A stretch of 64,000 nucleotides of DNA from Bacillota bacterium (GTDB lineage Bacteria > Bacillota > Clostridia > Lachnospirales > Bianqueaceae). The DNA lies in NCBI GenBank assembly GCA_017442535.1, contig JAFRZL010000015.1, positions 62,001 to 126,000 of the forward strand. Reading direction: 5' to 3'. Made by a program: the position numbers and the translations under genes. Each line of letters opens with the position of its first letter. Position 1 is the stretch's first letter. Below, piece by piece: positions 54,480 to 57,866 of this stretch. The notes beneath the pieces are model-generated. The model was not told the DNA's origin and made no database searches. It saw nothing but the letters and a program-made list of their open reading frames with translations.

Positions 54480-54513
54480 GGAAGTTCAGCGTTTACCTGA
54501 TTCAAATGCTTCC

Positions 54514-54547
54514 AACTATTCGTAAAAGGCAAGTTTTACGAATAGTT
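54514..54547. repeat. Palindrome A (14-bp arms, 6-base centre)
   Basis: AACTATTCGTAAAA and TTTTACGAATAGTT face each other around GGCAAG. The core ATTCGTAA/TTACGAAT recurs at 55528-55560, and the two copies bracket the lipoprotein gene. There is no T run directly after it, so it is not an ordinary terminator. Confidence 0.85.
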
Positions 54548-54556
54548 GTACCGTAA

Positions 54557-54600
54557 AAATAGGGGGAGCCCTCTTGATGAAGGCTCCCTTTTGATTTTGG
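54557..54600. terminator. Bidirectional terminator between MATE and lipoprotein genes
   Basis: GGGAGCC (54564-54570) pairs with GGCTCCC (54582-54588), with G-U and A-T pairs extending the stem. T-rich sequence follows on the plus strand, and on the minus strand the stem runs into TATTTTT. Confidence 0.8.
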
Positions 54601-54630
54601 CATTCTTTTTGGCATAATCGGAAATAATGA

Positions 54631-55458
54631 TTATTCTTCCGGATAATCATCTATTTCCGCAGGAAAAACAAGTTCGACAGGTTTGCCGGGGTCTTCCAGC
54701 TGCAATTCTATTTGAACGTGAACATGCGTTTCCGGCATTCCTTCCTCGATGACGTTCAGCTCAAATGATGTGACTGTACTCACAATGTAACCTTCGCTGT
54801 TGACCGTCATCGTTCCCTTCATGCCATCGATATTGTGCAGCATAGTCTCTGTAAAAGAATTATCAATCATTTCACCCGTCAGCATGCTCCAGAATAATTC
54901 CAAGATGGATCCGGACATCTGATCGATCATTTTCTCAGGATCGGCCGTATACTTCAGTATCGCATAATCCCTGGAACGCTCTGAACTCAGCTTTTGAATT
55001 GCTTGTGGCGCGATCGGTTTATATATAACGGTCGTCGGATCCGGAATACCGTATAGATCCTTATGATCCTGACTATATCGCCATTTAACCGTATTTTCAT
55101 GATGATCGTTCAAATAGATATAACCGCCTCGAGAATAAACATCCATGGTTTCAGCCGGTTCGGAATTATTAAACGCGTATATTTCCATCTGCATTACAGC
55201 GGGAATCTCTGTGTCAAGAATCTGATTACGTACATCCAACTGAACCATAAAACCTGATTTGAGCATTAACGAACCGATTTTGCAGCTAAAATTGCCCTTA
55301 AAATGCTGTTCCTTAAGTCCAGTGGTCAATTCATAGGCTTGCTGATACAATTTGAAAGGATCTTTTTCATCCAGAATGCTTTGGGATACAGGCAGCCGGA
55401 TGCAGGCCATACATGTCATGATAACCAGAATGACTGGGATCAACAGGATCTTTTTCAT
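54631..55458 (-). CDS. Predicted lipoprotein (DUF6612/LolA-like fold)
   Basis: A 275-residue predicted lipoprotein. The N terminus MKKILLIPVILVIMTCMAC is a signal peptide ending in a lipobox-like CMAC (lipidated Cys19 likely; Cys16 is an alternative). The mature part is about 250 residues of mixed beta sequence resembling the LppX/LolA-like DUF6612 proteins that are thought to bind lipophilic molecules at the outer face of the membrane. The start at 55458 has AAGGAG at 8 bases; 55476 lacks a site. It has its own consensus promoter with palindrome B upstream of the -35 box. No ABC or efflux partner is in the same transcript. Confidence 0.8.
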   Translation of the reverse strand: MKKILLIPVILVIMTCMACIRLPVSQSILDEKDPFKLYQQAYELTTGLKEQHFKGNFSCKIGSLMLKSGFMVQLDVRNQILDTEIPAVMQMEIYAFNNSEPAETMDVYSRGGYIYLNDHHENTVKWRYSQDHKDLYGIPDPTTVIYKPIAPQAIQKLSSERSRDYAILKYTADPEKMIDQMSGSILELFWSMLTGEMIDNSFTETMLHNIDGMKGTMTVNSEGYIVSTVTSFELNVIEEGMPETHVHVQIELQLEDPGKPVELVFPAEIDDYPEE

Positions 55459-55490
55459 ACCGGATACTCCTTGCATTGTATGATAATCAA

Positions 55491-55519
55491 ATTATACCAC
55501 ATACTTGGATGCCTGTCAA
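55491..55519 (-). promoter_or_regulatory. Consensus sigma-A promoter of the lipoprotein gene
   Basis: Minus strand: TTGACA (55519-55514), a 17-base spacer and TATAAT (55496-55491): perfect in sequence and spacing. Confidence 0.88.
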
Positions 55520-55527
55520 ACCCACAA

Positions 55528-55560
55528 AGTATTCGTAATAAAAAATATTTTACGAATACT
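55528..55560. repeat. Palindrome B between two divergent promoters
   Basis: AGTATTCGTAA (55528-55538) and TTACGAATACT (55550-55560) face each other around an AT-rich 11-base centre. It begins 9 bases upstream of the lipoprotein promoter's -35 box, and its last base is the first base of the ttcA -35 box. This position, and the shared core with palindrome A, suggest an operator. Confidence 0.85.
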
Positions 55561-55588
55561 TGACAGATCACTTGGATTGTGTTATGAT
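55560..55588 (+). promoter_or_regulatory. Sigma-A promoter of ttcA
   Basis: TTGACA (55560-55565), a 17-base spacer and TATGAT (55583-55588), 50 bases upstream of the ttcA start. Confidence 0.82.
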
Positions 55589-55637: not shown

Positions 55638-56390
55638 ATGACTTTACAGCAGCTTATGGGCTATATGCGCCGAGCTATCGACGACTATCAAATGATCCAG
55701 GAAGGCGACAAAATTGCGATCGGTATATCCGGCGGCAAGGACAGTATCTCCATGGCACTGGCACTTCGCGGCCTGCAGGATTATTATCCGAAGCATTTTG
55801 AACTGGAAGCTTTTACAGTGTCCCTGGGGTTCCCTGAATTCGATGTTACGGGAATCCGTGAGCTGATGAACCGGTACGATATCCCCTACTCTCTTATCGA
55901 GACGGACATCGGTAAAATCGTTTTTGAGGACCGTCGCGAGAAGAATCCCTGTTCGCTTTGTGCCAAATTAAGAAAAGGGTCATTTAACAAGCATGCAGCC
56001 GCGCATGGCTGCAACAAAGTTGCTCTCGGCCATCACACGGAGGATGTCGTTGAAACCTTCTATTTAAGCCTGTTCTATGAGGGCAGACTCCATACATTCT
56101 CTCCCGTTACCCAATGGGACCGATCGGGTCTCGTTGCCATTCGTCCCATGATATATGTTAAGGAAGCAGATATTATTTCATTTGCTAGGCGCGAACAGCT
56201 GCCCATTGTCAAGAATCCATGTCCGGCTGACGGGAATACGCAGAGAGAAATCATAAAGAACCAGATTCGTGAATGGAATCGGCAATTCGGTCATAATACA
56301 GAGCGTACATTCAAGGCCATTCAGGATGGATTGCCGGATTGGGAAGTGCTGTCCCCTTCCTCGATACGCCGCAGAAAAGGAGATCAATGA
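55638..56390 (+). CDS. ttcA: TtcA-like tRNA 2-thiocytidine synthetase
   Basis: A 250-residue PP-loop ATPase that thiolates cytidine 32 of some tRNAs using an Fe-S cluster. GISGGKDSISMALAL is the PP-loop, NPCSLCAKLRKG the CX2C of the cluster-binding site, GHHTEDVVET the second active-site block, and KNPCPADG supplies a later Cys. ATG 55638 follows GAGGGA; upstream in-frame codons lie in the promoter. It overlaps the recombinase gene by 4 bases. Confidence 0.87.
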   Translation: MTLQQLMGYMRRAIDDYQMIQEGDKIAIGISGGKDSISMALALRGLQDYYPKHFELEAFTVSLGFPEFDVTGIRELMNRYDIPYSLIETDIGKIVFEDRREKNPCSLCAKLRKGSFNKHAAAHGCNKVALGHHTEDVVETFYLSLFYEGRLHTFSPVTQWDRSGLVAIRPMIYVKEADIISFARREQLPIVKNPCPADGNTQREIIKNQIREWNRQFGHNTERTFKAIQDGLPDWEVLSPSSIRRRKGDQ

Positions 56391-57538
56391 TGAGTACCAG
56401 CTATCATGAAGAACAGCGCAGGAAGAATATCCTCAAATTAAGGGATCTGATGCTGGAAATGCCGGATTTTTGCTTTGAATATTTCCAGGGAATCGAACAA
56501 ACGACGGCTGAACGCACCCGGCTCGGCTACGCACACGACCTGAAGATCTTCTTCGAATATCTGCTGCAGTACAAGACTGAATTCAAAGGTCTGGAAATGC
56601 ATCAACTGACCCTGGCTCATCTGGATCAGGTGAAGGTCCGCGATATTGAGCGTTTTATGGAATATCTGACCTTCTATGAGAAGAAAACGGATGAAGGGAT
56701 CCAGATCGAATTGCAGAACGGCGAAACGGGCAAAGCCCGTAAAGTGGCTGCGATCCGCAGCATGTTCAAGTATTTCTACAGGAAGCAGGAAATCAGCAGC
56801 AATCCAGCCTCTCTGATCGATACGCCCAAAATCCATGAGAAGAATATTATTCGTCTGGAAGTCGATGAGATCGCCAGGCTTCTGGATGAAGTTGATTCCG
56901 GCGAACAGCTGACCGAGCGCCAGCAGGCTTATCATAAATATACCCACTCGCGGGATCTTGCACTGATCACCTTATTATTGGGAACCGGCATGCGTGTATC
57001 GGAATGTGTCGGCTTAAATTTGAGCGATATTGATTATCGCGTCAATGGCCTGAAGATCACCCGCAAGGGCGGTAACGAAGCCGTCATCTATTACGGTGCA
57101 GAAGTCGAAGAAGCCCTCCTCCCCTATCTGGAAGAACGCCGGCATATTATCCCTCAGACAGGACATGAAGACGCGCTTTTCCTATCCATGCAGAAACGCC
57201 GCATAACAGTGCGTGCAGTCGAGAATATCGTAAAAAAATATGCCTCCATCGTTACGCAGATCAAACGCATCTCTCCTCATAAGCTCCGGAGCAGCTACGG
57301 CACACAGTTATATAATGAAACAGGAGATATCTATCTGGTGGCCGATGTGCTGGGTCATAAGGATGTCAATACGACAAGGCGTCATTATGCGCAGATGGAG
57401 GACACAAGGCGCAGACGAGCTGCCAACGCTGTCCTGCTGCGGAAAGATCCGGAAACAGTTTCAGCACCTGCAGAAGCCTCTGAAACGGTCATACCTGAGG
57501 CTGATGCAGATCATACCAGCTCTTCTGAACAGGAATGA
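56387..57538 (+). CDS. Tyrosine recombinase (XerC/D-like) with long N-terminal domain
   Basis: A 383-residue site-specific recombinase. The catalytic set is complete: Arg203 in GTGMRVSE, a Lys near 227 (TRKGGN), His298 and Arg301 in SPHKLRSS, His324 in LGHKDVNTT and Tyr334 in TRRHYAQ. XerC/D proteins have about 300 residues; here the core-binding N-terminal domain is longer and an acidic tail of about 40 residues follows the tyrosine. It is coupled to ttcA (ATGA overlap), and no phage or transposon genes surround it, so it is more likely a resident chromosomal recombinase than a mobile-element integrase. Its last 50 bases overlap the convergent LysM gene. Confidence 0.88.
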   Translation: MMSTSYHEEQRRKNILKLRDLMLEMPDFCFEYFQGIEQTTAERTRLGYAHDLKIFFEYLLQYKTEFKGLEMHQLTLAHLDQVKVRDIERFMEYLTFYEKKTDEGIQIELQNGETGKARKVAAIRSMFKYFYRKQEISSNPASLIDTPKIHEKNIIRLEVDEIARLLDEVDSGEQLTERQQAYHKYTHSRDLALITLLLGTGMRVSECVGLNLSDIDYRVNGLKITRKGGNEAVIYYGAEVEEALLPYLEERRHIIPQTGHEDALFLSMQKRRITVRAVENIVKKYASIVTQIKRISPHKLRSSYGTQLYNETGDIYLVADVLGHKDVNTTRRHYAQMEDTRRRRAANAVLLRKDPETVSAPAEASETVIPEADADHTSSSEQE

Positions 57539-57866
57539 TCAGATAGGAACCTTCGACTATCGTTGTATCCTCCAGGTGATTCAGTGATATGATCTGATTC
57601 ACGAGAAGTCTGGGGTCCTCATCCGGCAGCGAATACTGTACGGCCAGATCCCAGATCGTGTCATCGGGCATAATCTGTACGGACTGGTAAACTCTGACAT
57701 TGTCTGACTTGGCATAGGCAACATGTGCTCTGCTGATGGCCGAAATCATAAGGATGGCAAGAATCAGGCCAAGAACGATGAGTCCGGGGAAAACAAGATG
57801 ATATCTCTTAACCAAAGAAGTGCGGCGCGGATAATTCTTAGAAGTAAAGGATGATTTGCAGTACAT
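57489..57866 (-). CDS. YneA-like LysM protein, probable SOS cell-division inhibitor
   Basis: A 125-residue membrane-anchored protein: a basic N terminus, one membrane helix (about residues 24-46) and a LysM peptidoglycan-binding domain (about 59-113, with PDDTIWDLAVQYS and EGSYLIIPV). YneA of Bacillus, which delays division during DNA damage, has the same layout at about 100 residues. The promoter carries an SOS box in its spacer, which supports this call. AAAGGAG precedes ATG 57866. The lexA gene, often the divergent neighbour of yneA, is not in the window. The 3' end overlaps the recombinase gene by 50 bases. Confidence 0.8.
   Translation of the reverse strand: MYCKSSFTSKNYPRRTSLVKRYHLVFPGLIVLGLILAILMISAISRAHVAYAKSDNVRVYQSVQIMPDDTIWDLAVQYSLPDEDPRLLVNQIISLNHLEDTTIVEGSYLIIPVQKSWYDLHQPQV

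Follow-up and report, generated by a model that had tools for sequence, protein, structure and literature searches.

Two related palindromes, which we call A and B, lie in the window (the whole stretch of 64,000 nucleotides of DNA analysed here) in the gene order MATE transporter, A, lipoprotein-like open reading frame (ORF) on the minus strand, B, ttcA and xer (Table 1). An earlier reading of the letters alone (the sequence-only reading) had proposed that A and B are related through a common core. Both palindromes were confirmed in the window: it holds exactly four copies of the shared core TATTCGTAA, every one inside A or B. A genome-wide search for the core palindrome, which that reading had recommended, was run on the assembly (2.25 Mb in 52 contigs, 79.7% complete; G000), and TTCGTAA followed after 3–30 bases by TTACGAA matches there at A and B only. 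With two copies in the genome, a plain scattered small repeat is ruled out.

A consists of two perfect 15-bp arms (54513–54527 and 54534–54548) with GGCAAG between them, the longest perfect separate-arm pair among the 14 pairs returned by an inverted-repeat scan of the whole window. The inverted repeat had been recognized before, with arms given as 14 bp and limits as 54514–54547; its likeness to a tyrosine-recombinase crossover site, with two arms flanking six bases, holds as proposed. A is the sole copy with 6-base spacing in its own genome. In B, 12-bp perfect arms (55527–55538 and 55550–55561) enclose 11 bases; read with 14-base arms in the manner of A, B becomes 14+7+14 with one mismatch between the arms and the centre AAAAATA. 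The half-sites of B are those of A, spaced 1–2 bases wider.

The ORF between the palindromes carries a lipoprotein-like signal (MKKILLIPVILVIMTCMAC, as read from the sequence), in keeping with its earlier description as a lipoprotein gene, and has no Pfam or NCBIfam match that would confirm the name. Weak relatives of it occur in 4 of 95 other genomes, and in G002, G005 and G009 these lie on contigs other than that of xer.

Table 1. Features of the A–xer locus in window coordinates
Feature	Position	Strand	Remarks
Palindrome A, dif-like crossover site	54513..54548	none	two perfect 15-bp arms, 6-base asymmetric centre
Centre of A, GGCAAG, predicted strand-exchange region	54528..54533	+	compared across the family
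Terminator-like hairpin just past A	54564..54588	scored on −	end of the lipoprotein-like transcript
Lipoprotein-like ORF	54631..55476	−	likely start ATG at 55458; no part of the Xer system
Promoter of the lipoprotein-like ORF, TTGACA/TATAAT	55519–55491	−	12/12 consensus
Palindrome B, Xer-type half-site pair, predicted autoregulatory operator	55527..55561	none	7-base AT-rich centre
Promoter of the ttcA–xer operon, TTGACA-17-TATGAT	55560..55588	+	11/12 consensus
ttcA-like tRNA 2-thiocytidine synthetase gene, first in operon	55638..56390	+	one-base overlap with xer
xer, single-chain Xer-type tyrosine recombinase, 382 aa	56390..57538	+	Pfam PF00589, NCBIfam, alignment

A conserved Xer-type recombinase

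The tyrosine recombinase that had been placed 0.8 kb further on is indeed there: the start of its ORF lies 0.83 kb past B, its product matches PF00589, and the gene is 1.8 kb from A. The catalytic residues of Xer proteins (R202, K226, H297, R300, H323 and Y333) are retained in all 47 rows of an alignment that includes the window's Xer twice, and matches at E ≤ 1e-60 occur in 85 of 96 genomes, its own included. XerS is the top NCBIfam model, with 188.7 bits against a cut-off of 267, and XerC and XerD score lower still, also below cut-off; in sequence matches to solved structures, XerD is best (E = 2.4e-25) and XerH reaches E = 1.1e-9. This Xer is the only PF00589 protein in G003, a 98% complete genome, and one of two in the window's own assembly, the second being a 429-aa ORF.

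Just past xer lies the gene of a small LysM protein (57489–57866), whose best NCBIfam model is the YneA cell division suppressor at 42.5 bits, below the cut-off of 60. A relative of this protein also adjoins xer in G001, G002, G005, G009 and G024.

The A-type site in relatives

A loose-spacer search of 96 genomes found near-identical sites within the window's family, and an A-type site with exactly six central bases is present in 13 of the 16 family genomes searched, own included. The surroundings of xer in 19 relatives, 20 stretches in total since G018 contributed two, were also scanned for the arms of A. A site with a 6-base centre lies on the xer stretches of 12 of these relatives (G002–G009, G013, G015, G016 and G024), and none with good arms and such a centre on those of G001, G010, G011, G018, G026, G042 and G070; G001 has an A-type site on a different contig from xer. 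Wherever both neighbours were found, the site sits between rsfS and xer. In the family it lies just upstream of the ttcA–xer operon, ~0.8–5.5 kb from xer in the 12 genomes (own included) that carry both on one stretch. Read in the direction of xer, the family centres are cgcaag, ggcatg, ggcaag, cacaac or cgcaac, always six bases long, with the consensus [CG][GA]CA[AT][GC]. Centres that are asymmetric and alike among relatives are expected for a strand-exchange region, not for a hairpin loop.

For counts across the order we used the fixed 6-base form only, because a free-spacer pattern mixed in chance matches: in many distant families its reversed control was at least equally common. TTCGYWAAA-N6-TTTWRCGAA matches exactly in 183 of 393 order genomes and is absent from the other 210; the reversed pattern is found in 5 of the 393. 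Counted by eye, 164 of the 183 genomes hold a single copy and 19 hold two to five. With at most one mismatch, TTCGYWAAA-N6-TTTWACGAA is found in 205 of 294 order genomes. Extended arms as in the window, such as ACAACTATTCGCAAAA, occur at several of 26 loci outside the family, a set drawn from 31 candidates after five were dropped for a misfitting core or shifted coordinates. In GTDB terms, the surveyed order is probably Lachnospirales. Its named relatives include Roseburia and Lachnospiraceae MAGs; G239 is Clostridium sp. MD294 (the dnaA and PF00589 positions are identical), which NCBI places in Eubacteriales. Outside the order, a class-wide search found the pattern in 26 of 277 genomes and the reversed control in 6 of 277, so we do not claim that the site is specific to the order.

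The genomes of the order with more than one copy include G349 (five), G208 (four) and G035 (three exact, four with one mismatch), and the extra dif-type copies could be elements integrated through Xer. Sites resembling TTCGCTAAAT-N4-ATTTAGCGAA recur in other Clostridia families (f58 and others), a hint that dif sites of this kind may form a broader class.

Pairing of the site with Xer genes

Outside the family, the distance between site and xer ranges widely. It is below 1 kb in G039 and G072, 5.6 kb in G043, 10 kb in G054 and hundreds of kb in G120, G221, G278 and G239, and at the loci checked in family f17 there is no xer within 1.5 kb of the site. Genus g10 (G023, G076 and G095) has an Xer of 32–33% identity, and a site with the same arms lies ~100–130 bp from the Xer match. 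There are counter-examples: G056 and G093 have a site match without a close Xer. That the site adjoins Xer genes across separate lineages is strong evidence that site and Xer are paired.

The g10 contigs with a divergent Xer beside the same dif arms are C16 of G023, C23 of G076 and C19 of G095, and the recombinase of this genus may have been replaced, or may have diverged, with the dif arms retained. A further Xer match (37%) lies elsewhere in G095, where no site was seen with it.

Chromosomal position and GC skew

A sign change of the GC skew at the site is the signature of a terminus dif site. We located dnaA in complete genomes through PF00308 and computed the skew of six genomes from twenty blocks of ~15 kb each. 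The skew turns from positive to negative between the blocks that flank the site in five of the six (G120, G221, G278, G039 and G043). As a fraction of the chromosome, the distance from site to dnaA is 0.509 in G120, 0.530 in G221, 0.509 in G278, 0.519 in G043, 0.497 in G054 and 0.475 in G239. In G039 the site is off-centre (0.382), and the skew flip is off-centre to the same degree. The exception is G060, whose single match lies at 0.042 and away from a skew flip near 1.8–1.9 Mb, so that the match may be due to chance or the true dif of this genome may differ. Two single-contig genomes with a site match, G084 and G238, were left out of the placement; G084 has no clear DnaA. Within the window, positive skew predominates up to ~60 kb, and the values at 60–64 kb are negative. 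This change, a few kb past A, is consistent with a terminus location of A but weak.

Xer-type half-sites in front of ttcA

B lies between the two divergent promoters and touches the −35 box of the ttcA promoter, as the sequence-only reading had noticed; the right arm overlaps the box by two bases. To survey relatives, we derived a half-site matrix from sites outside the family (of 42 loci offered, the 34 that fit were used and eight dropped) and applied it to the 200 bp preceding ttcA in 11 family genomes and in G070, a genome of f17. Xer-type half-sites precede ttcA in all 11 family genomes. The best half-site scores above every background window of the same locus in 10 of them, and in G002 4 of 304 windows reach it. 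The scan found no half-site in the 200 bp before ttcA of G070.

These half-sites come in three layouts. A pair with a 7–8 base centre is present in G000, G001, G002, G005, G006 and G009, with a weak right half in G005 and G009. G003 and G007 have a lone half-site that begins inside a −35-like hexamer. In G013, G015 and G016 dif itself lies directly before ttcA, and no clear promoter was seen there. Where the right arm overlaps a −35 box with a 17-base spacer, it does so by the same two bases in all five genomes concerned (G000, G001, G002, G005 and G009), which span two genera. The gene on the divergent side varies among relatives, which assigns B to the ttcA–xer promoter.

The earlier suggestion that B is an operator thus agrees with what is found in relatives, where predicted half-sites stand before ttcA in a fixed register to the −35 box. 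The occurrence of Xer-type half-sites at this place in 11 of 11 family genomes makes an autoregulatory Xer operator the most likely reading of B. The arms of B have a G at position 3, a base with a frequency of 0.05 in dif half-sites and different from that in A; given this rare base, a different regulator with a similar motif could also be the one that binds.

A candidate dif site and a predicted Xer operator

The arms of a dif site are ~11 bp long, and recombination by Xer is under FtsK control in most systems. A has the arms around an asymmetric centre of 6–8 bases that are characteristic of dif (15+6+15, the centre constant in relatives), is present once in G000 and once in most matching genomes, and lies at the skew flip in five of the six complete relatives sampled, G060 being the exception, with a weak skew change in the window itself, whose assembly is in 52 contigs. 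On these comparisons, it is very probable that A serves as the chromosomal dif of an Xer system with one recombinase. B, judged by its half-sites and their register, is probably an operator for Xer. The full model, in which A is the dif site of a single-recombinase Xer and B a predicted autoregulatory Xer operator, we consider quite likely. The sequence-only reading had offered a crossover site and an operator as alternatives; both probably hold, with one protein acting at A and at B.

Other explanations of the two palindromes were weighed against this model. B could be a decayed or modified second dif of an element that once integrated at dif, comparable to the modified dif of the gonococcal island, the stretch from A to B being its remnant. 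Like half-sites do flank ~1 kb, and integrated elements with a modified dif are known (PMC9765430); but the register of B to the −35 box is constant across five genomes from two genera despite the changing content between A and ttcA, and the centre of B, 7–8 AT-rich bases, is unrelated to that of A. We therefore regard such an origin as unlikely. It is also improbable that A and B are operators for an unrelated regulator and that the neighbouring recombinase is a coincidence. The place of B between two divergent consensus promoters would suit a regulator of this kind, as would the third base of its arms, unlike that of A. Yet A stands far from the strong promoters of the window. Its centre is fixed at six bases, most genomes that have it carry one copy, and in complete genomes it coincides with the skew flip; the same arms also adjoin Xer genes even where Xer identity has fallen to 32–33%.

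The sequence-only reading had further raised excision or inversion of the segment at 54.5–55.6 kb, for which an inverted repeat pair beside a tyrosine recombinase is a reasonable starting point. Strand exchange by tyrosine recombinases requires homologous centres, however, and GGCAAG (six bases) and AAAAATA (seven) differ in length and have no homology. The sites also keep their places among relatives while the genes between them change: a rubrerythrin-like ORF takes this position in G003, G005, G007 and G009 (in G005 and G009 the name of this divergent ORF is presumed from its sequence), and 4.7 kb of other genes in G002. With centres that lack homology and variable content between constant sites, rearrangement of the segment is unsupported. 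A cassette inverted or excised by the neighbouring recombinase is very improbable, given that this recombinase is a conserved core gene (the 85 of 96 genomes above, own included) most similar to Xer proteins and that B-type half-sites remain beside ttcA in relatives. Just as hard to credit is A as an RNA hairpin that signals termination or processing of the MATE transcript. Its stretch folds well as RNA (z = −4.1), but A has no T run after it, the terminator-like hairpin nearby is a separate one (Table 1), and conservation extends beyond pairing to the whole sequence, centre included, in genomes with different neighbours.

In the preferred model, with A as dif and B as operator, each arm of A would be occupied by one of two Xer monomers. 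In a dimer of fused sister chromosomes, two A sites would pair, and Xer, by analogy with known Xer systems, would swap strands over the six central bases and so restore monomers. Xer on B would block RNA polymerase and so keep its own supply low, and the wider, unrelated centre of B would prevent recombination with A. A more elaborate version, which we put forward tentatively and hold to be doubtful, is that Xer represses its own operon through spaced, non-recombining dif half-sites and that Xer molecules on dif may bridge to those on the promoter, which would let xer expression track dif occupancy in a feedback-controlled dimer-resolution module. Bridging is conceivable because dif lies only 1 kb off or, in G013, G015 and G016, immediately in front of ttcA.

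Comparison with known Xer systems

In streptococci and lactococci, a single Xer of ~356 aa, XerS, acts on difSL, a site beside xerS whose unequal arms, TTTCCGAAAA and TTTTCTTGAAA, flank a centre of 11 bp, according to the available part of PMC5357621. As far as that description goes, the system of the window resembles it in its single Xer and in the site adjoining the gene in the window's family, G039 and G072, though not in f17; it differs in the 6-base centre and equal arms of A, and the window's Xer falls under the equivalog cut-off of the XerS model (188.7 against 267 bits).

The accessible text of PMC9765430 describes a single recombinase in Legionellales, XerL, with long uninterrupted dif arms that its authors call unusual. 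A single recombinase, uninterrupted palindromic arms and a near-terminus site that is not always near the gene are common to both systems in that account; the arms are 10–12 bp there and 15 in A, and the likeness is one of the systems as described. XerH/difH of Helicobacter and Campylobacter also has a single Xer with its site near the gene (available part of PMC5357621). The window's Xer is closer to solved XerD than to XerH, as the E values above show. A is like the dif sites of XerC/XerD in its arms around 6–8 bases, terminus location and single copy. Those systems use two recombinases, whereas here the arms are identical, G003 has one recombinase, and the XerC and XerD scores are below cut-off.

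We found no description of this site in the open-licence literature searched, and it may be described elsewhere. The main text of a genome-wide dif survey, in the form available (PMC3025954), contains no word starting with 'lachnospir'; a survey of tyrosine recombinases treats Xer proteins in general terms in its accessible part (PMC8138268); and the available portion of an Xer review (PMC5357621) makes no mention of Xer autoregulation through dif-type half-sites.

Possible mobile elements and significance

The long dif core CTATTCGYAAAA-N6-TTTTRCGAATAG also occurs on 14 IMG/VR viral contigs: L254 (9846–9875), L267, L274, L285 and L443–L452. The fetched stretches of these contigs have no Xer or TtcA match. 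That of L254 also encodes a ParA-type ATPase, a ParB-like protein (below the Pfam cut-off) and a Rep3 initiator, suggesting that contigs of this type may be plasmids or phage-plasmids relying on the Xer of their host. The centre of the sites on L254, L285, L449 and L451, GGATAG/CTATCC, is that of the dif-type sites of genus g15.

Taken together, the analysis gives a large order of Clostridia from gut and rumen a sequence-defined, very probable dif site and the recombinase that probably acts on it. The site can serve as a terminus marker for draft assemblies, and plasmids and phages that borrow the Xer of a host could use it as a target. The arrangement of B further suggests an Xer recombinase that would control its own promoter through dif-type half-sites.
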